From a virus: a DNA stretch of 25,689 nt. The position numbers were made by a program, and so were the translations under genes. The stretch lies in IMG/VR virus record IMGVR_UViG_3300025674_000343, positions 1-25,689 of that record; one strand, written 5' to 3'. Below are positions 7,029 to 23,721 of this stretch, piece by piece. The notes under the pieces were generated by a model. That model was not told the DNA's origin and ran no database searches. It saw nothing but the letters and a program-made list of their open reading frames with translations. The stretch's first letter is position 1, and the number at the start of each line of letters is the position of its first letter.

Positions 7029-7430
7029 ATGGCTACACATAAAGGCTCAAGCGGTTCAGTAAAAATCGCCGCTTCTGGTGGATCAGTCACAGCAGTTGGC
7101 GAGGTTCGTTCTTATTCTATCGACGAGGTAGCAGACACTATCGAAGATACGGTTATGGGCGATACAGTCAAAACCTATCTGCCCAGCCTCAAAGATGCGA
7201 CGTTGACTATTGACGCGCTTTGGGACGACGCAGACGCACAGCAGTTAGTTGCTGACACGAGTGCTGAGATTGACTGGGAGATTCATCCTACTGGCACAGG
7301 CGCTGGTGAGAAGTATTACTCAGGCTCTGGCATCGTAACTGCCAAGACTATCTCTGCGTCTTATGACGGCCTTGTCGAGGCATCATTCTCGGTTCAGGTA
7401 TCAGGCGCAATCACTGAGTCATCTAACTAA
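7029..7430 (+). CDS. Major tail (tube) protein
   Basis: A 133-aa Ser/Thr/Ala-rich protein with strong Shine-Dalgarno AAGGGAG. It begins MATHKGSSGSVKIA and continues with strand-rich segments such as GEVRSYSIDEVADTIEDT, a very common layout for siphovirus tube proteins with a single tube domain. Hexamers of this protein stack into the non-contractile tail tube through which DNA passes. Position after the terminator and before the chaperone and tape measure genes agrees. There is no Ig-like C-terminal decoration domain; the protein ends soon after SFSVQVSGAITE. Its TAA overlaps the next ATG (TAATG). Confidence 0.88.
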   Translation: MATHKGSSGSVKIAASGGSVTAVGEVRSYSIDEVADTIEDTVMGDTVKTYLPSLKDATLTIDALWDDADAQQLVADTSAEIDWEIHPTGTGAGEKYYSGSGIVTAKTISASYDGLVEASFSVQVSGAITESSN

Positions 7431-7777
7431 TGGGACTCGCTAAGGAATTACGTGCGCGACGCAAGCAGTCTCGCCGTAGGATAGAGGTTGCGGAGTGGGC
7501 CGACGATCAGGGGGCGTTTGTTCTCTATTGTCGCCCACTAACTTGCTACGACCTTAACGAGCTTCAGAAGAAGCACCCGCAGGTTATGCAGAACCCTAGC
7601 ATTGCCGCGATGGTCGATTTAATTGTCATGAAGGCAGAGAGCAAGGATGGCGAAAAGCTGTTTACCTCTGCTGAAGACAAGATTGACTTGATGGGGGAAG
7701 AGACGACCATTGTGTCTGGTATTGCTAACGAGATGTTTAGCACTATCGACCCATTTGAGGAAGTCGAAAAAAACTAA
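7430..7777 (+). CDS. Tail assembly chaperone, short form (gpG-like)
   Basis: A 115-aa protein lying between tube and tape measure genes, the position of the lambda gpG family. These chaperones coat the tape measure protein and recruit tube subunits during tail assembly, and they are absent from the virion. It begins with a basic segment (KELRARRKQSRRRIE) and continues with EWADDQGAFVLYCRPLTCYDL, a pattern common in this family. It ends in KN at a slippery AAAAAAC followed by TAA, which is the zero-frame end. The long frameshifted form is described separately. Start by TAATG coupling with the tail tube gene. Confidence 0.85.
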   Translation: MGLAKELRARRKQSRRRIEVAEWADDQGAFVLYCRPLTCYDLNELQKKHPQVMQNPSIAAMVDLIVMKAESKDGEKLFTSAEDKIDLMGEETTIVSGIANEMFSTIDPFEEVEKN

Positions 7778-7923
7778 AGGCCGATCAGTCTCGGATGAAC
7801 TTAATTGCCTTGGCTGATCGGTTACACAAGACTATCGAAGAAGTCGAGCAGATTTCGGTCAATGAGTTTCAGGAATGGCTCGCGTACTTCAAGATAATGA
7901 GCGAGTCTAAAGATGGCGACTGA
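7430..7923 (+). CDS. Tail assembly chaperone, -1 frameshift form (gpGT-like)
   Basis: A -1 shift at 7768-7774 moves reading from the G frame into an open frame that runs to TGA 7921-7923, adding 49 residues from CTA 7774 for about 164 aa in total. The added part contains NLIALADRLHKTIEEVEQ and ISVNEFQEWLAYFKIMSES. The EF-x-EWLAYF motif is typical of the T half of siphovirus GT chaperones, which binds tube subunits. The T frame has no good ribosome binding site of its own before ATG 7795. The end overlaps the tape measure start (7913) by 11 nt, as in lambda-like tails. The reading frame and motif are seen directly; the efficiency of shifting is unknown. Confidence 0.85.
7768..7774 (+). promoter_or_regulatory. 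-1 ribosomal frameshift slippery heptamer
   Basis: The zero-frame codons are GAA AAA AAC, giving A AAA AAC, a canonical X XXY YYZ heptamer. The zero-frame stop TAA follows immediately at 7775-7777. Slipping back by one lets both tRNAs re-pair with AAA and continue at CTA 7774. It stands exactly where lambda-like tail chaperone genes shift. Confidence 0.9.
7779..7823 (+). promoter_or_regulatory. Frameshift-stimulating stem-loop
   Basis: CCGATCAG at 7781-7788 pairs perfectly with CTGATCGG at 7814-7821, and G-U pairs (7779-7780 with 7822-7823) can extend it to 10 bp. The loop is 25 nt. The stem begins 4-6 nt after the slippery heptamer, the usual distance for a structure that makes the ribosome pause. 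I see no clear pseudoknot partner. Confidence 0.75.
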
Positions 7924-9775
7924 AACCGTAAGCATTGTAATTAAGGCGTTCGACCAAACGCAAAAAGCCTTGCGCGGTATACAAGCCGCCTTCCGCAAAC
8001 TCTCCAAAGTTTTCTTCAACTTTAAAACAGCTCTGATTAGTGCAGTGGGTGGGGCTGGTCTTGGCTTGCTTATCACTAAGAGCCTTCAAGCCACAGATGC
8101 CCTAGCAAAAACATCAGCCCGAATTGGCACGACCACCGATCAACTTAGCAAGTTGCAGTTTGCAGGATCGCTCGCAGGGGTCGAAACCAATACGCTAAAC
8201 ATGGCAATGCAACGCTTTGTGCGACGTACCGCAGAGGCGACGCAAGGCACAGGCGAGGCTGTACGTGCTTTCCAACAGCTAAAGATTGACGCAAAAGAAA
8301 TACAGGAATTGCCTCTCGCAGAGCGCATGAAGGTTTTGGCAGGCGCGTTTGGAGAGCTAAAAACCGAAGAAGAAAAACTGGCTGTTGCGTTTAAGCTGTT
8401 TGACTCTGAAGGTACTGCTGTTCTCAATATGCTTCGTCAGTCTGGCGATGAAATGGAGGCGGTATTCCAAGAAGCGCAAAAGCTCGGCATTGTAATGTCG
8501 CAAGATGCGGCAAAAGGTGTCGAAGATGCTAACGACGCATTCACTCGATTGCTCGCTATTGGTAAAGGTCTTACAAACCAATTTACAGCGGCGCTCGCTC
8601 CAGCACTGACTACTTTAGTTACTACCTTTAAAGATTACATTCTTCAACAATCCGAGGCGTATGGCGGCATCGAAAACTTTGCACGCTTCATTGCAGGCGA
8701 GTTTATCGAAAATATCCGATCTGCCTTAGTTGGATTACAAGCACTGACTAACGCAGGAATCGACATAGTTAATACGTTCAATTCTGCACGTCGTAGCTTG
8801 TCTGCGGCTTTCGCTATTGGCAAGGCCGATCCTAATGATGTGGCGGCGCTAGAAGCGGAGCTTGCCGAAATAGATCAGATGCTGAAAGGCGGCTTCTTTA
8901 ACGATTTAGGCAAAATTCGCTTGTTTAGTGATAAAGGCGTCATTGACATCCTTTCAGACGAAGAGATATTGGCAGAACGTGAGCGCATCGTTAATAGGCT
9001 TGAACAGCTCGGGGTTGAGATCAACGAAGCTATACCGTATGTAAATTTTGCCGATCGACTGGCAGTGCCTTTAGCAGAGGCGGCAGAGGCGGCAAAAGCC
9101 CCCATAGAAAGCCTAAAAAACACCTTAGAAGAAGTAAAGGTGGTCGCGCAAGCGCCTTGGTATATGCCTTTAATTGACGGGTTTAAAAAGTTCGGTAATG
9201 CCATTGATAATGTTATCGAAAAAATGCCCAACATAGATCAGGCACTAGAGCAGTTTACACAAGGTGCGATGAATAATTTCACGCAGGCTTTTGTTGATGG
9301 CGTGACGGGCGCTAAGAATTTTGGTGAAGCTATTAGAAACTTAGCGAAAAGCGTCGTGGATTCGCTAATTAAAATGCTCGTTCAGTATTACATTACTAAG
9401 CCGTTGTTTGACGCAATTAGTGGCGGTATCTCAAGTGCGTTTGGTGGCGGTTCAACAACGTCAACGGGTGGCGGTTCTGCTCTACCGACTTTTGCAAGCG
9501 GTGGTGTAGCAACTGGCGGCAGACCTGCAATAGTAGGCGAGCGCGGCCCTGAATTATTCATACCAAGCACAACAGGGCGAGTAGTTCCTAATGACCAGCT
9601 TGGCGGCGGCGGTGTAGTAGTCAATCAGACAATCAACGTCACCACAGGCGTACAGCAAACTGTACGTGCTGAGATTGCTAACCTACTACCTCAGATTAGT
9701 AACGCGGCCAAGTCAGCGGTAGCAGATGCTAGAATGCGAGGCGGTGGTTTCAGTAAGGCAATGGTGGGTGCATAA
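7913..9775 (+). CDS. Tail tape measure protein
   Basis: A 620-aa protein that sets tail length and is ejected with DNA. The N-terminal half is helical, with a hydrophobic stretch at about residues 38-60 (FKTALISAVGGAGLGLLITK) that could insert in the host membrane. A second helical region runs from 130 to 480 with many Ala, Glu and Gln residues. The C-terminus has a Gly/Ser/Thr-rich hinge and the family motif VGERGPELFIPSTTGRVVPN around 545-565. With the usual 0.15 nm per residue, the tail would be about 93 nm. No lysozyme or peptidase domain is embedded, unlike in some tape measures. It overlaps the chaperone long form and is TAATG-coupled to the next gene. Confidence 0.92.
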   Translation: MATETVSIVIKAFDQTQKALRGIQAAFRKLSKVFFNFKTALISAVGGAGLGLLITKSLQATDALAKTSARIGTTTDQLSKLQFAGSLAGVETNTLNMAMQRFVRRTAEATQGTGEAVRAFQQLKIDAKEIQELPLAERMKVLAGAFGELKTEEEKLAVAFKLFDSEGTAVLNMLRQSGDEMEAVFQEAQKLGIVMSQDAAKGVEDANDAFTRLLAIGKGLTNQFTAALAPALTTLVTTFKDYILQQSEAYGGIENFARFIAGEFIENIRSALVGLQALTNAGIDIVNTFNSARRSLSAAFAIGKADPNDVAALEAELAEIDQMLKGGFFNDLGKIRLFSDKGVIDILSDEEILAERERIVNRLEQLGVEINEAIPYVNFADRLAVPLAEAAEAAKAPIESLKNTLEEVKVVAQAPWYMPLIDGFKKFGNAIDNVIEKMPNIDQALEQFTQGAMNNFTQAFVDGVTGAKNFGEAIRNLAKSVVDSLIKMLVQYYITKPLFDAISGGISSAFGGGSTTSTGGGSALPTFASGGVATGGRPAIVGERGPELFIPSTTGRVVPNDQLGGGGVVVNQTINVTTGVQQTVRAEIANLLPQISNAAKSAVADARMRGGGFSKAMVGA

Positions 9776-11391: not shown

Positions 11392-14300
11392 ATGGCCGTA
11401 AGTGCTATAGCAGGTTTAGTCAGCGCAGTAGCAGGCGGTATTGCCACTGGATTTGCGCTCGGCACATTTTTAACTAGCTTTGCAATCGGTGCTGGCTTGT
11501 CAATGGTGTCTCGTGCGCTTGCACCAAAGCCCAACATCGGCGAGCAAATGCGGGGTTTAACTCAAACGACGCGCAACCCTGCTGACACCCGCAAAATTAT
11601 TTACGGAAAAATGCGAGTTGGCGGCAATGTCGTTTTCATCGCGCACTCTGGTAGTGATAACAAATATCTGCACTTGGCTGTCGTGTTTGCTACGCATCGG
11701 ATTACTGCATACGATGAGGTATGGTTTAACGACAACAGGATTTGGACTGCGGCAGGTGGGTTTCAAGGTGACTGGGGTACATACGTCACAATGGACACTA
11801 CTAAGCTCGGCACTGCAGGACAAACTGCTTCGACCGTACTTACGCCTATTACCGAGTGGACAGCAAACCATAAGCTAAGTGGCATCGCCTATATAGCCTT
11901 TAAGCTAGAGTGGAATCAGGATAAGTTTCCGCAAGGCGTTCCAAACATTACAGCAGTCATTAGGGGTAAGCCTGTATTTGACCCGCGCACTGATGTTACT
12001 GGCTACAGCACAAACCCTGCGCTTTGCTTGCGCGACTACATGCTTGACCAAGACTATGGGCTAGGTGAAAGCAACGTAAACATTGACTCAACTGCGCTAG
12101 AAGCGGCGGCTGACCTTTGCGATGAGCAGGTATCGCTAAACGCTGGCGGCACACAAGACCGCTACCAGTGCAACGGCGTCATAGACACGGCAAACCAAAT
12201 CAAAGCCAACATCGAGCAACTGCTCGCGTCTATGGGCGGCAAGCTGACCTACTCAGGCGGCAAGTATTTTGTAGACGGCGCAGAGTACAAAACGCCAACG
12301 CACACGTTTACAGAGGCAGACGTTATTAGCGAGATACAGACGCAGACTAAGCAGTCGCGCAGAGGCATCTACAATGGCGTCAAAGGCATCTTTGTATCGG
12401 AAGAGAAAAACTACAAGGTACTAGACTACCCTGCGCAGATTAGCTCTACATACGCCACAGAGGACGGCGACCCTCTTTACCTAGATATGCCTTTGCCTTT
12501 TGTGACCAATAACCTACAGGCACAACGGCTGGCAAAAATTGCACTGCTGAAGTCACGTCAGCAAGTCGTCATAACAATGACAGTAAACCTAAAGGGCTTG
12601 CAGATTAAGGTCGGCGACACAATACAGGTCACTAACGACCGTCTTGGCTATAGCTCTAAAGTATTCGAGGTTATCGACTACTCATTAGCAATTGGCGATG
12701 GACAGGCATTGGCGGTCAATCTTGTTTGTATCGAGACGGCCTCTGCTATTTACGACTGGACGACCTCAGACGAGGCGGACTTTTTGTCGGGCGGTGAACT
12801 GGACTTATACGACGGTAGAACGGTCGATAACGTCACTAGCCTCACACTTACTGAGATTGGTTTACGCGGTCCAGACGGTGGCGTTAGCTCGTCTGTGCAG
12901 TTGGCATGGACAGCGCCTGACGACGCGTTTATCGAGTTCTACAAGATACGCTACAACAAGAACGGCACCACTGATTACTTTGAGGTACAGAGCCGCGAGA
13001 CTAACGTGCTTATCTCTGGACTCGACATTACCTCTAATTACGATTTTCGTGTACAGGCAGAAAACCTGCTGGGCGTAACTAGCACAGGCACAACATTAAG
13101 CAATCAAGCACTAAATGGGGACACGACTGCACCAAGCGCACCAACAGGGGGCGCGGCTACAGGCGGGATACAGACAATAACCGCAGAGTGGACTAATCCT
13201 AGTGACATAGACTTTAAGCACGTCGAGGTTTTCGTCAATACGAGCGACTCGATACCTGCGTCACCTACTGCTGTAGTTGATGGTGAGGAGTATGTGGTCA
13301 CTGGCTTGTCAGGCGCTGTGACGCGTTATTTCTGGCTTAAGGCCGTCGATTTCTCTGGCAATAAGTCAGCGGCGACTGCCAGCTTCAACGGCACGTCAGT
13401 AGTGGCAGGCTCTACTGATATTGCAGACGATGCGATAGGCGCTGATGAAATCAACGATGATGAGGTTTTGCATGAGGTGCCGTCTGAGGGGCTTACTTAC
13501 TATTGGCCCTGTAACTCAATCGCAGATGTTAGCGGTAGCGGCAATGAAGAATTACAAGAGGTAGTGGCTGGAAAGACGGGCATACACAGTGGCTCGACAG
13601 CGCCGACACTTAGCACTGACTCGCCGACAGGTAAGTCAATAGTCAATGGCACTGACAATAGCGGATGGACGCTTCTCAGCGACACTGATGCAGATGCGCT
13701 TGAAGGTGCTAATGGTTTTGCGTGGTCGCTTTGGTTTAAGTCTGATACGACCTCTGGCGACGGTGCGGCGCGTATTATTGGGCGTGATGCTTCAGACGGA
13801 TGGGCTGTCGTCATCGATCAAAGCGCAAGCGGCAATCAAGCGGTCACGCTGTACGGCGAGCCAAGCACTGAAGCAATGGGTTCGCTCGCACAGGGCGAAT
13901 GGCATCACTTCTGCCTGAGCGAGGACGGTAACGGCACGATCTCAGGATACGTCAACGGCGAGCTTGTCAGCACAGAGTCATATACACCTGTTGATTCGTC
14001 GCGGCCAGTTGTTATTGCGTGTAACACTGAGACAGCAATTAACACAGCCTCAAGTGTGTTCGAGGGCAAGCTAACAGAAATACGTGCTTACAACAGAGCG
14101 TTGACAGCACAGGAAGTGCGCGGTCTGTATAAAGTCCCAGCGGCGAGTGCGCCAGCGGAAGTCGACGGCGACATGATTATCGACGGCAGTTTAGTCGCGG
14201 CCAAAATAACTGTCGCTAACCTTGCAGAAATAAATGACAACGTTGGAACGATTACGGGCGGCTCAGTCGGTGGTGTAACCATTACATCTACCAAGCTGTA

Positions 14301-17300
14301 TCAAGGTACTGGCACGTTCAACAACAGCAACACAGGCTTTTATCTTGATAACACTGGTCAGTTTAGCCTTAAGGACAAGCTGTCTTTTAACGGAACCACC
14401 CTAAGCGTAAGCGGTGCAATCACAGCAACCAGCCTCACTCTAAGCGGTACGTCAATCGCTGAGTCTCAGCTTGCGTCAGGTGTGCAGTCTAGCCTTGGCC
14501 TTGCTGATAGCGCACTACAGGATGGCGACACAAGCGTTAACCTCGGGCTAGACGATGGCTCTATAGCTGGGATTAACATCACATCAACTAAGCTATACGC
14601 GGGTACGGGTGATTGGGGTAATTCAAATACGGGCTTTTATCTCGACAACACGGGCAAATTTAGCCTCAAAGACAAGATCTTTTTCAACCCTTCAAATAGC
14701 TTGCTCACCGTTGACGGCAATATCACAGCGGACATCATTACAGCTAAAGAAAACCTCGTCGTCCTTGGTGATCTTGAGGCTAGTAGTATGGCGGCGGGAT
14801 CTATCACGCGAGCGATGTTCTCACAGGACGCACTCGACGAGATATATGGCGCATTGGCAACGTCTGTTGGCGGCTCTAATGGTGACTACAAAGAGGCGTC
14901 GGGGAACTTCACGACATCAGGCGGCACGGTAACGGTAGGCACATCATCAGATAAGTTTGACCACGGCACTGCTGACGTAGTGGTTGAGTTCCTAGCTAAT
15001 CACTACTTCTATGCGACTACGAACTACACGACGGCACAGGCACAAGCAACGCTTAACTTTGAGGTGTCGGCTGACGGTACGTTTACGGATCTGACCTCAG
15101 CGACAAAGACTCAGACACTTCAGTTCGAAGAATATGACCTGTCGAGCTATTACGGCACCACGACTCTCGTTTACTCCTTTAACGGTGAGCACAGCAAGAC
15201 GTTTACGACGGGATCGGGTAACGACATACCCGACAGCACAGAGCTACAGTTCCGTGTTCGCGTTACAGGCGTCGGTACGGCATTCACTGGGCAGACAGTA
15301 CCCTTCACCGTAGAGGCTAACGAGGGCGTCACAGGCGTCGTCTCAACAGGCGGTAACGCTGACACCCTAGATAACCTCGACTCGACCAAGTTCTTACGCT
15401 CTGACGTTAACGACACGTTTGACGCTGACCTAACGATTACGGGCGACCTGTCACTGCAAGGCGCTCTGAATATCACGGGCGATATAAACAGCTATAACGT
15501 CACCGACCTAGACGTGACCGACAAGACGATAACCGTCAACTCAGGAAATACGCAGTCACTATCTGACGGCGCTGGCCTTATCGTAGATCGCGGCACTGCA
15601 AGCGATGCCAGCCTTACTTGGGATGAGACAAACGACAAGTTTGATTTTAGCCACCCAGTACAGATACAGAAATCGACTATCGGCGGCGAGTTGTTGCATC
15701 TGCGTAACTCATACAACGGCGGATATCGTGACGATCTAATCATCGAAAACACTAACGATCGTGACGCTGGCCTAACCATTAAAACTGCTGGCGGCCAGTA
15801 TGAAATGTGGGTTGATTCGAACGGCGATGACAGCCTGATTTTCTCAGCGGGTGATAACACTACCAATATCACCATGGAGCTGTATCAGAACAAAAACGTC
15901 GATATAGGCGGCGACTTAGACGTTACTGGTGAGATTGACACGTCGAAGGGCCTGACGTTTAACCCTAACGGCTATGATATTAACGGCGATAGTGACGGCA
16001 ACCGCACTCTTTTTACGTTTACTCGAAGCGGCGCGGCAAGCTGGCAGATATGGCACAACGCTAACCAAGACCTAAACTTTATACCGAACAACACCTCGTA
16101 CAAACTTCAATGGAACGGCAACGATCTTTTGTATAGTGGCGCAAATATTTCGGTCGGCACCATCAGCTCGGGCGCTATCACTAGCAGTACAGGCACAAGC
16201 TCGTTTTATGAACTCACGTTAACTGGTGACTCTGACGACCTAACCTTCACCACAACGGGCGGCGACTGGTCAATACTCAACGCGCAACAGAGTAATGGCT
16301 TAGTAATTTACGACGGCACTAGCGGCGTTACTGTTTTATATAACAATGCAGAGGTCGGACAATTTGACAATAGCGGCTTTGATGTAGTTTCTGGCGCGTT
16401 ACAGGTAGGTGGTACTACAAGAATTTCATCGGCTGGCGCTGGCACATTTACAGACGTAACGCTGAGCGATATATCCCCTGAAATAATTCTATCGGACACT
16501 AACAGTGGCGGAGGCGGTGGCGCTTTTGGAAGAATCCTTTTTCAAAATACTGCTGGTAACGCAATCGGCATTGGCTATACACCAGACTCAATTGACGACT
16601 CTGACTTAATAATCAGCACGAATGCGGCGGGTACTTATGGCGGGTATATGAGTCTCGACGCGGCGGCAATCGCTGACACTCAAGCAGACATCATCCTTGA
16701 GCCAAAAACCAATGTCCGTATCGCTACAGGTGGCCTGAAGATCGGAACCACAACTTTCGTGGATTCCAGCCGCAACATTACCGCAGGCACTATAAGCAGT
16801 GGGGCTATCACTAGCACTGGCCGTATAACATCAGATTCTTCCGACATCGACGGCTTTGTGCTGGAGAACTCGGCTCATCGTAGCGGCGTGTTAAATATAC
16901 CGCAACGTGATGCCGCCGACTCATATACGGGCATTATGCTGAAGCGTGATGATGGCGATCGTTGGGCGGTCATGGCCAGTGACACCCTTTTTGGTATTTA
17001 TGACGACATCAATGATGATTGGGCATTACAAGCGTCAGAACTTGGCGGAGTGCGGCTCTACTATGCTGGGGCAGGTAAGCTGGAAACGCTTGATGACGGG
17101 GTGCAAATCACAGGTCGCGTTACTGCCGCCGCCACCAACATCGACAACGCTTACAATTTTCAGTTTACCGATAGCGACGCAGACAACTCATATTCAGGGA
17201 TGCGTATTGATTACAACGCATCCGATAATACAACTCTGACGGCTGACAGGAATCATATCGCTTTTGAAGTTGACTACGATGTGACCTCAACAGGCGGTGA

Positions 17301-20256
17301 TACGTCAAATGAGTATCGAGCTTATGGGATATCTGTAGACGTTAGAGGTAGCGGTGATACTGATATTCGTAGGGGCATTTACTCTTACAGCGAAACTCAG
17401 CATAGCGCTGGGACTGTATCCGAAAACATAGCTATTTATGGCTATGCGGTAGCAGATGAGACTGGAACAGGCAGAACGACGAACAACTATGGCGGTTATT
17501 TCCTCGCATTCGAAAATGGCACTGGAACGGGCGGCACTGCAACCCACTATGGTGTGTTTTCGAAAGCTCAAGCGACTAGCGCGGCGGATAAAAATATTGG
17601 CTCAATGTACGGCGTTTACTCTGAGGTTGAATACGACACAACGGGAGCCACTACTGCAATATCAACTATTTATGGCGTTAGCTCGATAATAGATAACGAC
17701 AGCACTGACACTACCGTAACAAATAGCTATCTGTTTCACGGGTCTTATCAGGGAACTATCAACGCAACAAACGCTTATGGTCTTTACATAAGTGGCAATG
17801 TTGAAAACTACTTTGCGGGACACGTCAGAGCAGACCAAGGCTACAAGGTTGGATCAAGCACGATAATTGACGCTAGTGCCAATATGAGCAACATAGGCAC
17901 TATAGGATCAACAGGCGATATAACCGTTACTAACGGAAGTTTCAACCTAAGCAGTGGCTACAATATTCAATGGGGCGGCTCTTACAGTTCGGGCTTTCCC
18001 ACTATCTTTGCAAATTCCTCACAAAAAGTTTTACGCTTCGCGCCTAACGGAAGTACGACTGGCACAGTTTTAGAAATAGATAGTGGTGGTCTTGACCTAA
18101 AGGTCGGCGGTTATGAAATTGACGGCACCACCGTCATCGACTCTAGTAGCAATATAACGGCTGGCACCATCTCCTCGGGCGCTATCACAACTAGCGGAAC
18201 TCTCGACTTCACGGCGAACCCAGCTTACATCCGCAACGATCAAGATGCTTCAGGCCAAATTGTTATAAGTGCCAAAAACTCGGCTTCTCAAACCCAGCAG
18301 GTTCGATGGGATGCGGCAAATAACACGGCTGGCGCATGGCGACCTGAGACGACTAATATCAGCGATTTAGGTTTGACCGATAAAATCTGGAATACGCTTT
18401 ACATCAATCTGATTAAACATGGCGCGTCTAATGATACGTTCCTAGATCAGAACCGAAACGTCACGGCTAACGACGTGCTGGTCTTAGGTGATCTCGACAT
18501 TCAAAACAGGCTGCGGCACAACGGCAACACAGACACGTACATCGAATTTACAACCGATCAGATCGATCTTAGAACGACCCTTACATCTCGACTGACTATC
18601 ACTGACGACGTGACTGTGAATACTGATCTGATCGTCGAAGCAATGTCGCCTTCTATTAGTATCAGAGACGGTAATAACGGCGGAAGCGGTAACGCAGAAG
18701 GCAAAATACTATTTAAAAACACAGGCGGCAACGCGATTGGTATAGGCTATACAGCCGATGTTCTAACTGATTCTGACCTAATAATTAGCACAGACGCGGG
18801 CGGCACTTATGGCGCATATTTGGGACTTGATGCGCTGGCGATTACTGATACTCAATCGGACATTATCTTAGAGCCGAAAACTAGCGTCCGTATTGCTAGC
18901 GGTGGGTTAAAGGTAGGAACAACAGAAGTTATCTCATCCGTAGGCCGCTTTTACAGCACTTCTAGCACAGTAACCAAACCTGCTTTCTCGTTCGATGGTG
19001 ATTCAAATACTGGTATGTACCACATGGGCGCAGACCAGATCGGCTTTACAATCGGCGGAAGTAACAAGGTTTATATTGAAGACAGCACTTATGTGTTAAA
19101 TGTTCTGGGTGCCGCTTATATTACAAGCGACCTCGATGTGGCAGGCGATCTTGCCGTAGGAGGTAACATAACCTCGGGCGGTAGTACGCTTTTAACGTCC
19201 GATGATTATGACACGCAAGTATGCCACTTAAAAACAAACGTCAGCGCGGCGGTAGATCAAGGCGTAGCAAATGAATTTACTGTCAACTTCAACCTAGAGG
19301 AGCATAACGACAGCACGACGTTCTCTCATTCCAGCGGCGTGGTTACTGTCGCAACGGCAGGCTGGTATCGCGTTTATGCCAACATGGTGTATCAGAATGG
19401 CTCAGCCTCTGCTCGTAACACAGTACGCGCTTATGTAGAGAAAAACGGCACAGAGATCACTAGCACCGCAACCTATGATTATGATCGTGGTAGCTCATAC
19501 GGCGAGTTCTCAAACAACAAGATTGAGACCATGCTGTATTTAGCCGCTAACGATACCATCGGCATCGGTAACTACGCAGAGAATGAGGACGGCGTAATTA
19601 CCATTGAGGCGGCTGAGTGTGAATTCATAGTCTCATCGGTGAGCGCTACAACAACGACCACCAACGCCGACACAGTTGATGGTCTTCACGCCTCTTCATT
19701 TATCCGTAGTGATGCGTCTGATACCGTCTCTGGTGCGATTACGTTTAACTCTGATGTTTATGTCAGCAATCGAATTTACCATGCTGGCGATACAAACACA
19801 TACCTAGATTTTTTAGACGATAGGGCTCGCATCATTAGCGGCGGCATCGAAATGATCGACTGCGTGGAGGGTGCTACAGATTACGTTGATATTGTTGATC
19901 GTGTTCGTGTCACGGCTGGTGGCGACTTAGAGTGTGAGGGAAATATTACCGCCTACACAAGCACCAGCATTTCGGACATCAACCAAAAGGAAAATATCCA
20001 ACGCATCGAATCGCCCATTGAGAAAATTAAGGAAATCTCGGGCTACACATTTGATTGGAAGCAGTCGGGCGAGCATTCAGGCGGCGTCATTGCTCAAGAG
20101 ATCGAGCAGGTTATGCCCGACATCGTGAAAGAGAAGAGTATACGAGACGGCGAAAAGATGAAGGCCGTGGATTATCAGGCAATCATCGGACTGCTTGTCG
20201 AGACAGTCAAAGACCTCAATAAACGTATTGAGGATTTAGAGAATGGCGATGACTAA
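11392..20256 (+). CDS. Giant J-like hub + tail fibre + S74 chaperone fusion, 2954 aa
   Basis: The largest gene, about a third of the window. Residues 1-46 are hydrophobic and Gly/Ala-rich. Residues 60-475 resemble the lambda J-like tail hub (RKIIYGKMRVGGNVVFI, then LCLRDYML and NLKGLQIKVGDTIQVTN). Two fibronectin-III-like domains lie at about 485-580 and 583-668, then a LamG/concanavalin-like domain at about 698-917. Fibre modules follow: 37-aa repeats at 964-1000 and 1063-1099, a strand-rich domain at 1157-1316, LDNLDSTKFLRSDVNDT at about 1323, duplicated 97-aa blocks at 1694-1790 and 2418-2514, a YG-anchored repeat region at 1974-2136, a C1q-like jelly-roll at about 2605-2750, and a terminal S74 intramolecular chaperone from 2861 with Ser2861 and Lys2866. 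It would form the trimeric central fibre that recognises the host. Start has SD GAGGTAA. Confidence 0.9.
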   Translation: MAVSAIAGLVSAVAGGIATGFALGTFLTSFAIGAGLSMVSRALAPKPNIGEQMRGLTQTTRNPADTRKIIYGKMRVGGNVVFIAHSGSDNKYLHLAVVFATHRITAYDEVWFNDNRIWTAAGGFQGDWGTYVTMDTTKLGTAGQTASTVLTPITEWTANHKLSGIAYIAFKLEWNQDKFPQGVPNITAVIRGKPVFDPRTDVTGYSTNPALCLRDYMLDQDYGLGESNVNIDSTALEAAADLCDEQVSLNAGGTQDRYQCNGVIDTANQIKANIEQLLASMGGKLTYSGGKYFVDGAEYKTPTHTFTEADVISEIQTQTKQSRRGIYNGVKGIFVSEEKNYKVLDYPAQISSTYATEDGDPLYLDMPLPFVTNNLQAQRLAKIALLKSRQQVVITMTVNLKGLQIKVGDTIQVTNDRLGYSSKVFEVIDYSLAIGDGQALAVNLVCIETASAIYDWTTSDEADFLSGGELDLYDGRTVDNVTSLTLTEIGLRGPDGGVSSSVQLAWTAPDDAFIEFYKIRYNKNGTTDYFEVQSRETNVLISGLDITSNYDFRVQAENLLGVTSTGTTLSNQALNGDTTAPSAPTGGAATGGIQTITAEWTNPSDIDFKHVEVFVNTSDSIPASPTAVVDGEEYVVTGLSGAVTRYFWLKAVDFSGNKSAATASFNGTSVVAGSTDIADDAIGADEINDDEVLHEVPSEGLTYYWPCNSIADVSGSGNEELQEVVAGKTGIHSGSTAPTLSTDSPTGKSIVNGTDNSGWTLLSDTDADALEGANGFAWSLWFKSDTTSGDGAARIIGRDASDGWAVVIDQSASGNQAVTLYGEPSTEAMGSLAQGEWHHFCLSEDGNGTISGYVNGELVSTESYTPVDSSRPVVIACNTETAINTASSVFEGKLTEIRAYNRALTAQEVRGLYKVPAASAPAEVDGDMIIDGSLVAAKITVANLAEINDNVGTITGGSVGGVTITSTKLYQGTGTFNNSNTGFYLDNTGQFSLKDKLSFNGTTLSVSGAITATSLTLSGTSIAESQLASGVQSSLGLADSALQDGDTSVNLGLDDGSIAGINITSTKLYAGTGDWGNSNTGFYLDNTGKFSLKDKIFFNPSNSLLTVDGNITADIITAKENLVVLGDLEASSMAAGSITRAMFSQDALDEIYGALATSVGGSNGDYKEASGNFTTSGGTVTVGTSSDKFDHGTADVVVEFLANHYFYATTNYTTAQAQATLNFEVSADGTFTDLTSATKTQTLQFEEYDLSSYYGTTTLVYSFNGEHSKTFTTGSGNDIPDSTELQFRVRVTGVGTAFTGQTVPFTVEANEGVTGVVSTGGNADTLDNLDSTKFLRSDVNDTFDADLTITGDLSLQGALNITGDINSYNVTDLDVTDKTITVNSGNTQSLSDGAGLIVDRGTASDASLTWDETNDKFDFSHPVQIQKSTIGGELLHLRNSYNGGYRDDLIIENTNDRDAGLTIKTAGGQYEMWVDSNGDDSLIFSAGDNTTNITMELYQNKNVDIGGDLDVTGEIDTSKGLTFNPNGYDINGDSDGNRTLFTFTRSGAASWQIWHNANQDLNFIPNNTSYKLQWNGNDLLYSGANISVGTISSGAITSSTGTSSFYELTLTGDSDDLTFTTTGGDWSILNAQQSNGLVIYDGTSGVTVLYNNAEVGQFDNSGFDVVSGALQVGGTTRISSAGAGTFTDVTLSDISPEIILSDTNSGGGGGAFGRILFQNTAGNAIGIGYTPDSIDDSDLIISTNAAGTYGGYMSLDAAAIADTQADIILEPKTNVRIATGGLKIGTTTFVDSSRNITAGTISSGAITSTGRITSDSSDIDGFVLENSAHRSGVLNIPQRDAADSYTGIMLKRDDGDRWAVMASDTLFGIYDDINDDWALQASELGGVRLYYAGAGKLETLDDGVQITGRVTAAATNIDNAYNFQFTDSDADNSYSGMRIDYNASDNTTLTADRNHIAFEVDYDVTSTGGDTSNEYRAYGISVDVRGSGDTDIRRGIYSYSETQHSAGTVSENIAIYGYAVADETGTGRTTNNYGGYFLAFENGTGTGGTATHYGVFSKAQATSAADKNIGSMYGVYSEVEYDTTGATTAISTIYGVSSIIDNDSTDTTVTNSYLFHGSYQGTINATNAYGLYISGNVENYFAGHVRADQGYKVGSSTIIDASANMSNIGTIGSTGDITVTNGSFNLSSGYNIQWGGSYSSGFPTIFANSSQKVLRFAPNGSTTGTVLEIDSGGLDLKVGGYEIDGTTVIDSSSNITAGTISSGAITTSGTLDFTANPAYIRNDQDASGQIVISAKNSASQTQQVRWDAANNTAGAWRPETTNISDLGLTDKIWNTLYINLIKHGASNDTFLDQNRNVTANDVLVLGDLDIQNRLRHNGNTDTYIEFTTDQIDLRTTLTSRLTITDDVTVNTDLIVEAMSPSISIRDGNNGGSGNAEGKILFKNTGGNAIGIGYTADVLTDSDLIISTDAGGTYGAYLGLDALAITDTQSDIILEPKTSVRIASGGLKVGTTEVISSVGRFYSTSSTVTKPAFSFDGDSNTGMYHMGADQIGFTIGGSNKVYIEDSTYVLNVLGAAYITSDLDVAGDLAVGGNITSGGSTLLTSDDYDTQVCHLKTNVSAAVDQGVANEFTVNFNLEEHNDSTTFSHSSGVVTVATAGWYRVYANMVYQNGSASARNTVRAYVEKNGTEITSTATYDYDRGSSYGEFSNNKIETMLYLAANDTIGIGNYAENEDGVITIEAAECEFIVSSVSATTTTTNADTVDGLHASSFIRSDASDTVSGAITFNSDVYVSNRIYHAGDTNTYLDFLDDRARIISGGIEMIDCVEGATDYVDIVDRVRVTAGGDLECEGNITAYTSTSISDINQKENIQRIESPIEKIKEISGYTFDWKQSGEHSGGVIAQEIEQVMPDIVKEKSIRDGEKMKAVDYQAIIGLLVETVKDLNKRIEDLENGDD
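13484..14140 (+). other. LamG-like domain within the fibre gene
   Basis: Residues about 698-917 of the giant protein begin GLTYYWPCNSIADVSGSGNE and end with LTEIRAYNRALTAQEVRGLY. The pattern (W-F-K-S-D, AARIIGR, GEWHHFCLS, GTISGYVNGELV, E-x-R-AYNRALT-x-E) is that of laminin-G or concanavalin-like sugar- or protein-binding folds. In a tail fibre it is a candidate receptor-binding or side-fibre domain, mounted between the FN3 pair and the shaft. Confidence 0.75.
14281..14689 (+). repeat. Two copies of a 37-aa fibre module
   Basis: Residues 964-1000 and 1063-1099 share ITSTKLY, GTG, NSNTGFYLDNTG and FSLKDK. I count 30 of 37 identities. The copies are 99 residues apart, so the unit is a whole fibre-shaft module. 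The module is known in phage fibres, where each copy adds a strand layer. Confidence 0.85.
16471..18933 (+). repeat. Duplicated 97-aa fibre block (two distant copies)
   Basis: Copy A is 16471-16761 (residues 1694-1790) and copy B is 18643-18933 (residues 2418-2514). They align without gaps, 66 of 97 identical by my count. Shared runs include GNAIGIGYT, DSDLIIST, and DIILEPKT. The DNA of the two copies has diverged at many codon positions, so the duplication is old or was acquired by module exchange. The 724-residue offset frames the YG repeat region. Confidence 0.88.
17311..17799 (+). repeat. YG-anchored repeat region in the fibre
   Basis: Residues about 1974-2136 contain nine spaced hydrophobic strand anchors, each centred on Y-G or a close variant: RAYGI, RRGIY, IYGYA, YGGYF, HYGVF, MYGVY, IYGVS, SYLFHG and AYGLY. 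Spacing is about 17-25 residues, with Thr/Gly/Asp-rich turns between. This looks like a repeating strand-turn shaft, such as a beta-helix or triangular beta-prism, typical of trimeric fibre knobs or shafts. Confidence 0.7.
19204..19644 (+). other. C1q/TNF-like jelly-roll domain in the fibre
   Basis: Residues about 2605-2750 show VNFNLEEHNDSTTFSHSS, GVVTVATAGWYRVYANMVYQ and AYVEKNGTEIT, followed by YLAANDTIGIGNYAEN. The 'TVATAGWYRV' and 'LAANDTIGI' elements match the usual C1q-type pattern of a strand ending in AGxYxF/V and a later 'L..GD.I.v' strand. It forms trimers in known proteins, which fits a fibre tip just before the S74 chaperone. Confidence 0.6.
19972..20253 (+). other. S74 intramolecular chaperone (auto-processing) domain
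   Basis: The last 94 residues, 2861-2954, begin SDINQKENI and contain IKEISGYTFDWKQSGEHSGG and VIAQEIEQVMPDIV, then a terminal helix KDLNKRIEDLENGD. This is the Peptidase_S74 family found at the C-terminus of endosialidases and T5 and other fibres. The dyad Ser-x4-Lys (S2861 and K2866) is intact, so cleavage just before S2861 is expected after trimer folding. Confidence 0.92.
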
Positions 20257-21387: not shown

Positions 21388-21573
21388 ATGGATACCATCG
21401 TCCTCTTTCTCATTCTCGAGAGTAGTACAGTCAGATATGTGGGGTATCGCGTCGTTCCACATACGATGTGCGTCTACAGGCAACAAGGCACCGACAAGAA
21501 ACACGTCTACTACGTAGCCTCTGCTATCTATAGATGCCCATCAATCATCCGATTGCGTGGGGGTGCAGGGTGA
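21388..21573 (+). CDS. Hypothetical small protein, 61 aa
   Basis: A 61-aa frame with a strong site AAGGGGG 3 nt before ATG. The N-terminus MDTIVLFLILES is hydrophobic and could anchor in the membrane or be a short signal. Two Cys residues (residues 28 and 50) and several Tyr follow. It overlaps the start of the next gene by 4 nt if that gene starts at GTG 21570. I do not recognise the family. The strong ribosome binding site argues for real translation, but the sequence itself offers little support. Confidence 0.45.
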   Translation: MDTIVLFLILESSTVRYVGYRVVPHTMCVYRQQGTDKKHVYYVASAIYRCPSIIRLRGGAG

Positions 21574-22025
21574 TAGATCCAATCTCAGCGGCGGCTCTTG
21601 CCACAAGATGTTATTCGACGGTCGTCGCGCTAGTACAGGCGGGTCGTGAGGCACATGATGTGATGGGTCAGATCGGTCAATGGTACGGTGCCGCAAGCGA
21701 TGTCCTATACGCCGAGAAGAAAGCCAAGAACCCCAACCCTTTTAAAAAGCTAGTATTCAGCAAGTCGGTAGAAGCTGAAGCTGTACAGTTGTTTGCGCTC
21801 AAAAAAAAGATGCAGGCGCAACAGCGAGAGATTTTAAACCTCATAAACTTGGCTTATGGCGCTCAGGGATTGGAGGAGTTTAGAAACATTCGCAAGCAAG
21901 TTGCTAAGGAAAGGCAGGACGCCGTATACCGTCAGATAGAAATGCGCCAGCAAATAGCGCAGGGATTTTTACTGGTTGTTTTGTTAAGCGCGTTGATTGC
22001 ACTAATCGCACTCATGCTGTCCTGA
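21570..22025 (+). CDS. Conserved phage protein with C-terminal membrane segment
   Basis: Starting at GTG 21570 gives 151 aa (M-IDPISAAALATRCYSTVV...), with the pattern IDPxSA...GxxxGQWYGAASDVLYAEKKAKNP and EAEAVQLFALKKKM that I recognise from marine phage genomes, where these proteins also begin with IDP. A start at ATG 21534 adds 12 residues but has no ribosome binding site, whereas GGGGG precedes the GTG. The middle is a charged helix (FRNIRKQVAKERQDAVYRQIEMRQ). The last 20 residues (GFLLVVLLSALIALIALMLS) are a clear single transmembrane helix, so the protein is tail-anchored in the inner membrane. A lysis or superinfection role is possible given the holin and endolysin downstream. Confidence 0.8.
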   Translation: MIDPISAAALATRCYSTVVALVQAGREAHDVMGQIGQWYGAASDVLYAEKKAKNPNPFKKLVFSKSVEAEAVQLFALKKKMQAQQREILNLINLAYGAQGLEEFRNIRKQVAKERQDAVYRQIEMRQQIAQGFLLVVLLSALIALIALMLS

Positions 22026-22975: not shown

Positions 22976-23374
22976 ATGTTGCAGGCACTAGTTGGCCCAG
23001 TTGCTGGACTGCTGGACAAGTTCATCGAGGACAAAGACCAGAAGGCAAAGCTCGCGCACGAAATTAGCACGATGGCTGAGAAGCACGCGCAGGAGCTTGC
23101 GAAAGCACAGCTAGAGGTCAACAAGGTAGAGGCGGCACACAAGTCGCTATTCGTCTCGGGCTGGCGTCCTGCTGTAGGCTGGTGCTGTGTTTTGGGAATG
23201 ACTGGCAACTTCATGGTCATACCCTTTACTAACTTTGTGCTGGCACTGCTGTCGATAGATGTGACCATCCCACTGATTGACCTAGAGACAATGATGCCTG
23301 TCCTTATGGGTATGCTAGGCTTAGGCGCTATGCGAAGCTACGAAAAGACCAAAGGCGTATCTAGAGAGAAATGA
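22976..23374 (+). CDS. Holin, 3TM superfamily
   Basis: A 132-aa protein with an N-terminal amphipathic helix (residues 1-55; LDKFIEDKDQKAKLAHEIST then a charged coil) and the holin family motif SGWRPAVGWCCVLGMTGNF at 61-79. Transmembrane segments lie at about 66-92 and 104-120 (LMGMLGLGAMRSYEKTKG). The WRPAVGW...LGLGAMRSYEK pattern is typical of the Holin_3TMs family. It would oligomerise in the inner membrane and release the endolysin encoded directly downstream. The stop overlaps the endolysin start by 4 nt (ATGA). Confidence 0.9.
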   Translation: MLQALVGPVAGLLDKFIEDKDQKAKLAHEISTMAEKHAQELAKAQLEVNKVEAAHKSLFVSGWRPAVGWCCVLGMTGNFMVIPFTNFVLALLSIDVTIPLIDLETMMPVLMGMLGLGAMRSYEKTKGVSREK

Positions 23375-23721
23375 GCTACAAGTATTTTCACGAGTCAGAG
23401 TTTCGCTGTCGAGAGACTGGCGAGAATCGAATGAAGCCAGAATTCATAACTATGCTTGACGAGCTACGCGAGCGGTGCGGGTTTAGCTTCGTTATCACGT
23501 CGGGCTATCGCTCTAAACAGCACACGGCAGAGCGAAGCAAAGAAAAGGGCGGCACTCATACTTTAGGTATTGCAGTAGACATTGCAGTATCTAATGGCGA
23601 GCAGAGAATGAAAATCGTGCGGGAAGCCCTAGAGATGGGCTTTGGCGGAATAGGCGTAGCGCGTACATTCGTACACGTCGATATGCGGGCAACTACGCCT
23701 GTAATGTGGACTTACGGCTGA
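23371..23721 (+). CDS. Endolysin, M15-type peptidase
   Basis: A 116-aa single-domain peptidase of the M15_3 family (D-alanyl-D-alanine carboxypeptidase/L-Ala-D-Glu endopeptidase fold). The sequence ITSGYRSKQHTAERSKEKGG is followed by GTHTLGIAVDI, which holds H63 and D70, and TFVHVDMR, which holds H102 and D104. These match the zinc ligands and catalytic acid of the family. It cuts peptide crosslinks or stems in peptidoglycan. There is no signal peptide, so it depends on the holin for exit. The length is normal for the family. No spanin pair is recognisable nearby. Its 3' end overlaps the convergent leftward gene by 10 nt. Confidence 0.93.
   Translation: MSYKYFHESEFRCRETGENRMKPEFITMLDELRERCGFSFVITSGYRSKQHTAERSKEKGGTHTLGIAVDIAVSNGEQRMKIVREALEMGFGGIGVARTFVHVDMRATTPVMWTYG

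Follow-up and report, generated by a model that had tools for sequence, protein, structure and literature searches.

A tail assembly chaperone pair of the lambda gpG/gpGT kind, arising through -1 slippage of ribosomes on the heptamer A AAA AAC, is predicted in the virus record analyzed in this study, which comes from a marine tailed phage (25,689 bases; this whole stretch is referred to as the window). The slip is probably boosted by two flanking elements, a Shine-Dalgarno-like GAGG and an RNA stem-loop. We put the probability of this reading, which is drawn from sequence comparison, at about 90%. A gpG/gpGT-type frameshift had been proposed in the original prediction and is strongly supported by the conserved heptamer, the conserved -1 frame, the gene order and the fold of G. 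The account given there of the signal itself was incomplete, as both the GAGG element and the covarying hairpin were overlooked.

Two overlapping frames, G and T, are located on the plus strand between the genes of the tube and tape measure proteins, both identified by PHROG and Pfam. The gene of the major tail (tube) protein (7029-7430; PHROG major tail protein, 4.9e-16; Pfam Phage_tail_2) lies directly 5' of G, and its product is the presumed partner of the T domain. The tape measure gene (7913-9775) matches PHROG tape measure families up to 1.6e-44 and Pfam Tape_meas_lam_C. G (7430-7777) encodes 115 aa and closes, as originally described, with GAA AAA AAC TAA at 7766-7777. The slippery heptamer (7768-7774) is in the X XXY YYZ phase and adjoins the stop codon of G (7775-7777), which is TAA in the window and TGA or TAG in relatives. 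The -1 frame of the T domain (7774-7923) runs from CTA at 7774-7776 to TGA at 7921-7923; it has the 49 codons counted earlier and ends 11 nt inside the tape measure gene, whose ATG begins at 7913. It translates as LKADQSRMNLIALADRLHKTIEEVEQISVNEFQEWLAYFKIMSESKDGD, and the gpGT fusion has 164 aa with the junction ...EKN-LKADQ....

Other genes of the window were also identified. One tail gene (11392-20256), covering about a third of the window, encodes 2954 aa with a tail-tip-like N-terminus (Phage-tail_3, fn3), a Laminin_G_3 lectin domain and a C-terminal Peptidase_S74 endosialidase chaperone. A GTA_holin_3TM holin (22976-23374; Pfam 7.7e-20), of a family named from gene transfer agent release, adjoins an M15 peptidase (23371-23721).

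The joined 164-aa G-T sequence was used as the query for relatives and matched 279 stretches of viral contigs, of which 80 were kept. Further loci were obtained with an alignment query and a roseophage query, 80 from each, and some contigs recur among them. The 249 loci reported below are those that have a readable G end and could be placed, and codon-use tests were performed on 54 clusters with less than 85% identity in G. Homologues in cellular genomes were limited to two partial matches. In the roseophages CRP-811, 821, 822, 823, 831 and 406 and the pelagiphages HTVC026P, 111P, 112P and 202P, G-T is homologous at 36-44% identity with T in the -1 frame, and all roseophage and pelagiphage isolates examined retain a heptamer. 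The isolate relatives include roseophages of siphovirus morphology (PMC12629253), described in a paper that does not mention frameshifting. By terminase comparison, pelagiphages and phage DSL-LC06 are the isolates nearest to the window, sharing 51-53% identity with it.

A total of 12 annotated phage records were found among the relatives, and eight were examined for annotation of T. T is unannotated in seven of the eight; in Sinorhizobium phage phi3LM21, the eighth, just part of it was called, as a separate hypothetical protein. In annotated roseophages and pelagiphages (loci L082-L087), T has no annotation though the -1 frame extends for 50-60 codons without a stop. The expectation that gene callers without a frameshift model miss T is thus borne out, and gpGT is invisible in the genomes of these isolated phages because its T half is unannotated.

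An open frame of 49 codons is expected by chance at about 9% under a Markov model of the window. This makes its length weak evidence on its own, so that relatives are needed, and with them the open -1 frame becomes decisive. T lies in the -1 frame in all 249 loci. The first 45 codons of this frame are open in each of 108 distinct sequences, and both other frames contain stops in all of them. Sequence differences fall at codon positions 1, 2 and 3 of the -1 frame in proportions of 27, 19 and 53% in the same 108 sequences, and the third-position excess persists beyond the hairpin region. The third-position differences, together with the stops in the other two frames, indicate that T is translated and selected as a protein; as far as alignments can establish it, we regard the T frame and the selection on it as established. 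Overlapping frames beside a homopolymer often stem from errors, and the pair could accordingly be read as one longer gene split by an indel, through faulty sequencing or assembly or true gene breakage. The relatives refute this, with the identical frame break at the identical place in 249 loci including isolate genomes, and leave it a negligible probability.

The motif EF-x-EWLAYF, which had been taken for a known T-domain signature, is a conserved core of the family, but no Pfam family covers it. Against PHROG, the window's protein gives only weak matches to 'tail protein' and 'tail assembly chaperone', which do not establish the motif as a known signature. The structure predicted for T consists of three helices (pLDDT 86).

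Homologues were checked for a normal start before T, and they have no conserved one. A separate T protein starting at ATG 7795 would be compatible with the presence of this ATG, T codon 7, in the window as well as in roughly half the relatives, and with the portion of T annotated as its own gene in phi3LM21. We reject this explanation as very improbable: the first 20 T codons contain no ATG in 50 of 115 distinct sequences and none of ATG, GTG or TTG in 19 of the 115, conserved T residues precede codon 7, and the slip codons are free of synonymous variation. Since start codons are often absent and conserved residues lie before codon 7, T is most simply made as a fusion to G. The tryptic peptide predicted at the G-T junction is NLK; at three residues it is so short that mass spectrometry with trypsin would fail, and Glu-C or a similar protease is needed. 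The predicted Glu-C junction peptide of gpGT is KNLKADQSRMNLIALADRLHKTIE. In the roseophage CRP-823 the predicted junction sequence is ...EKN-LKGDPFR.

A strong bias in Glu codons was also observed inside T at 7837-7848 (T codons 21-24), for no obvious reason. The counts there are GAA 55/57, GAA 63/66 and then GAG 64/69 (37/41 in the CRP clade). The stretch 7837-7848 gave no signal of a fold, and the biased codons are perhaps another cis element.

Codon use at the slip site is strongly skewed. The A-site codon is AAC in 53 of the 54 clusters and AAG in one (p 1e-15 against AAC/AAT use), with AAC and AAT about equally used elsewhere in G. At the P-site, AAA is found in 47 clusters, GGA in seven and AAG in none (p 8e-22), yet AAG is the commoner Lys codon in G. 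In every case the base preceding the P-site codon agrees with it, being supplied by GAA, GCA, GTA, ATA, AAA or ACA, or by GAG or CAG at G GGA AAC. Neither slip codon shows synonymous variation within either clade, whereas Asn and Lys codons elsewhere in G do vary. Lack of conservation of the heptamer had been named as a point against the frameshift; A AAA AAC is in fact kept, or swapped for the slippery G GGA AAC. This swap occurs in one subclade, requires at least two changes on the tree and, judged from the heptamers, alters the amino acid yet leaves the site able to slip. The heptamer of Pelagibacter phage HTVC111P is A AAA AAG. The slip site and its selection are, at this comparative level, established as well. 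In four relatives the stop codon of G is shifted 3 to 12 nt downstream, and the spacing between heptamer and hairpin is unchanged.

The site in the window also holds seven consecutive A (7767-7773), on which RNA polymerase could slip and yield the fusion during transcription. However, relatives with GGGAAAC, which contains no A run, or with just six A have T in the same -1 frame, and it is the strict-phase ribosomal heptamer that is conserved instead, no long homopolymer being common to all members. We consider polymerase slippage highly unlikely and reject it in favor of ribosomal slippage on the heptamer. As a negative control, a second in-phase A AAA AAC in the window (9115-9121, in the tape measure gene) has 18 open -1 codons; it is neither conserved nor followed by a stable fold. 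An in-phase A AAA AAG at 21803-21809 (gene 21534-22025) has a -1 frame of 24 codons and no stable downstream fold. Both are probably chance occurrences.

The heptamer had further been described as strong. A AAA AAC ranks among the slipperiest heptamers for mammalian ribosomes, but E. coli is much less prone to shift on it than on A AAA AAG (PMC5009743), so the description fails for bacteria. The lambda site G GGA AAG is highly shift-prone in E. coli (PMC5009743).

A putative 5' stimulator, GAGG (7757-7760), was found 7 nt 5' of the heptamer. Of 115 distinct sequences, 102 carry it in this position, with both clades represented. The Glu codon at the site is GAG in 45 and GAA in seven cases, compared with 245 GAG and 280 GAA codons in the rest of G (54 clusters; Fisher p 1.9e-8), and both GAG and GAA occur at the other conserved Glu positions of the gene. 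To judge from this codon choice, GAGG is kept beyond the need of the protein. In dnaX and many IS elements, internal Shine-Dalgarno-like sequences act as stimulators of -1 shifts, the reported effective distance being 9-14 nt (PMC5009743). The spacing of 7 nt is slightly under that range, and the role of GAGG is for this reason less sure than that of the hairpin; a function as frameshift stimulator is likely but not settled.

The putative 3' stimulator is an RNA hairpin of 12 bp (7779-7823), also recognizable as an inverted repeat, that starts 4 nt after the heptamer. Its conserved core arms are CCGATCAG (7781-7788) and CTGATCGG (7814-7821). Across relatives the stem has 8-12 bp and starts 4-6 nt past the heptamer. 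For the 56 nt following the heptamer in the window, the folding energy is -20.7 kcal/mol (z -4.36). Within the window's clade, z averages -4.87 over 69 distinct relatives and is below -2 in every one of the 69; control stretches of the same loci have a mean z of about 0. The subclade with G GGA AAC retains the hairpin, and nine of its distinct sequences carry one A-C mismatch in the stem.

Covariation in the alignment supports pairing of the two arms. Pairing holds for 86.8% of alignment cells and drops to 17-48% if the partner is displaced along the alignment; both sides are changed in 49 cells, compared with 27 in shuffles. Columns 34 and 74 hold C-G in 73 and G-C in 38 of 111 rows without any mismatch. 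On a tree built without the hairpin columns, this flip takes six changes and has no intermediates, a count to be read with the weak support of many tree forks and with recombination, which could inflate it. Other arm pairs in relatives include GCGGTCAG/CTGACCGC and CCTCTCAG/CTGAGAGG. Partner changes in the 3' arm are often synonymous (Arg CGG/CGC/AGG, Asp GAT/GAC), and constraint on the protein alone is therefore no sufficient explanation. We take the hairpin and selection on it to be established by this covariation.

Several other structures and roles were searched for. No 5-bp helix for a pseudoknot between the hairpin loop and downstream sequence was common to more than 25 of the 69 sequences, and the control stretches gave no signal of a second structure further downstream. 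Rfam returned nothing at the gathering threshold, RybB on the opposite strand reaching half its threshold. No terminator-like site was found on this strand, and no T run follows the stem.

The nearest sister clade, formed by the CRP roseophages, has no shared or consensus hairpin and keeps both the heptamer and GAGG. Because this clade manages without it, the hairpin is not essential to the mechanism. In HTVC111P a short stem of its own follows the heptamer, a single fold that is suggestive only. In phage DSL-LC06, a distant relative, A AAA AAC precedes a long-range stem, GAGGATGCT ... AGCATCCTC, that extends over about 80 nt; this differs from the hairpin in structure though not in place, and is likewise suggestive only as a single fold.

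It could be argued that the frameshift is real and that the hairpin and GAGG do not stimulate it, the arms being driven by the protein or the hairpin serving another role, such as mRNA protection, insulation of the tape measure start or transcription termination. Both arms overlap conserved T residues (D-Q and A-D-R), and the sister clade works without a hairpin, as this explanation would allow. However, the synonymous Arg and Asp positions track changes in the other arm, the spacing to the heptamer is kept where the stop codon moves, and the search for a terminator was negative. We consider this explanation unlikely, though less so than the alternatives discussed above, and retain stimulation of the frameshift as the probable role of both elements.

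The AlphaFold model of G (pLDDT 81) has as its best match among solved structures the HK97 tail assembly chaperone 2OB9 (Foldseek E 2.2e-3, TM 0.53-0.58), a match of moderate strength. Sequence search of solved structures gave nothing meaningful, and G of the window gave nothing above threshold in Pfam and NCBIfam. Relatives of G reach 3.9e-10 in their matches to PHROG tail assembly chaperone families; the protein of the window matches them weakly, its PHROG matches being low-scoring and either unnamed or of tail function. The T frame at -1 everywhere, the kept slip site, the lack of a conserved T start and the HK97-like fold of G together place the pair in the lambda gpG/gpGT kind.

Lambda gpG is a binding partner of the tape measure protein, and the scarcer gpGT (about 1 in 30) uses its T part to recruit the tube protein (PMC5009743). 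From the features described above we infer that slipping occurs, that GAGG and the hairpin raise its rate and that the products act as chaperones. Most ribosomes would terminate at TAA 7775 and release gpG of 115 aa. In a minority, the P-site tRNA-Lys on AAA and the A-site tRNA-Asn on AAC would slip by -1 on A AAA AAC, and translation would continue to TGA 7921 and produce gpGT of 164 aa. GAGG would pair with the 16S rRNA of the translating ribosome, and the stem-loop 4-6 nt downstream would resist unwinding, each probably boosting the slip. It is plausible that the two elements lift a weak heptamer to the required rate, and they probably set the frequency of slipping. By analogy with lambda, gpG would coat the tape measure protein, a few gpGT molecules would recruit the tail tube protein via T, and both would leave the finished tail.

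A -1 frameshift in tail chaperone genes, conserved among long-tailed phages, is textbook knowledge since lambda. The possibly novel features are the presence of a two-part stimulator at such a site and its turnover from one relative to another; a search of open-access papers turned up no account of stimulators of this type in tail chaperone genes. We lean slightly toward the view that a marine tailed-phage lineage added a dnaX-type GAGG and a covarying stem-loop to the chaperone frameshift, driving a heptamer that is weak in bacteria. If this is true, the gene family is a natural series for studying how phages tune the gpG:gpGT ratio, with members that have the heptamer without the hairpin or G GGA AAC with it. 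The natural variation in hairpin presence, heptamer and covarying arms offers ready-made constructs on how the chaperone ratio is set, and bears on whether bacterial ribosomes require assistance to slip on A AAA AAC.

The locus shares with lambda the order of tube protein, G, T in the -1 frame and tape measure, and a slip site at the end of G. The T/tape-measure start overlap is 8 nt in lambda and 11 nt here, and T has 49 codons here, compared with a lambda T reading frame annotated as 144 aa. At the lambda slip site, G GGA AAG, the next 55 nt fold unremarkably (z 0.68) and the sequence immediately 5' lacks GAGG, in contrast to A AAA AAC with GAGG and a covarying hairpin. HK97 gp13/gp14 is similar in that the G model matches the gp13 structure 2OB9 and the longer HK97 product also comes from a -1 frameshift. 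It differs in having at most 17% identity over the aligned part and no sequence-level match, and a strict heptamer scan of HK97 found no in-phase site. The g-t frameshifts of the haloarchaeal viruses HCTV-1 and HCTV-2 occur in genes of this kind and use the slip sites G GGA AAC and A AAA AAC (PMC5009743); their hosts are archaea, and the likeness is one of slip sites and gene kind. The tail chaperones of CRP roseophages differ by working without the hairpin. The signals of E. coli dnaX and IS elements share the three-part layout of Shine-Dalgarno-like element, heptamer and stem-loop, the functional stem of dnaX having 11 bp (PMC5009743, PMC3711429). dnaX differs in gene and purpose, and it combines A AAA AAG with a Shine-Dalgarno element 10 nt upstream, whereas here A AAA AAC or G GGA AAC is combined with GAGG 7 nt upstream.
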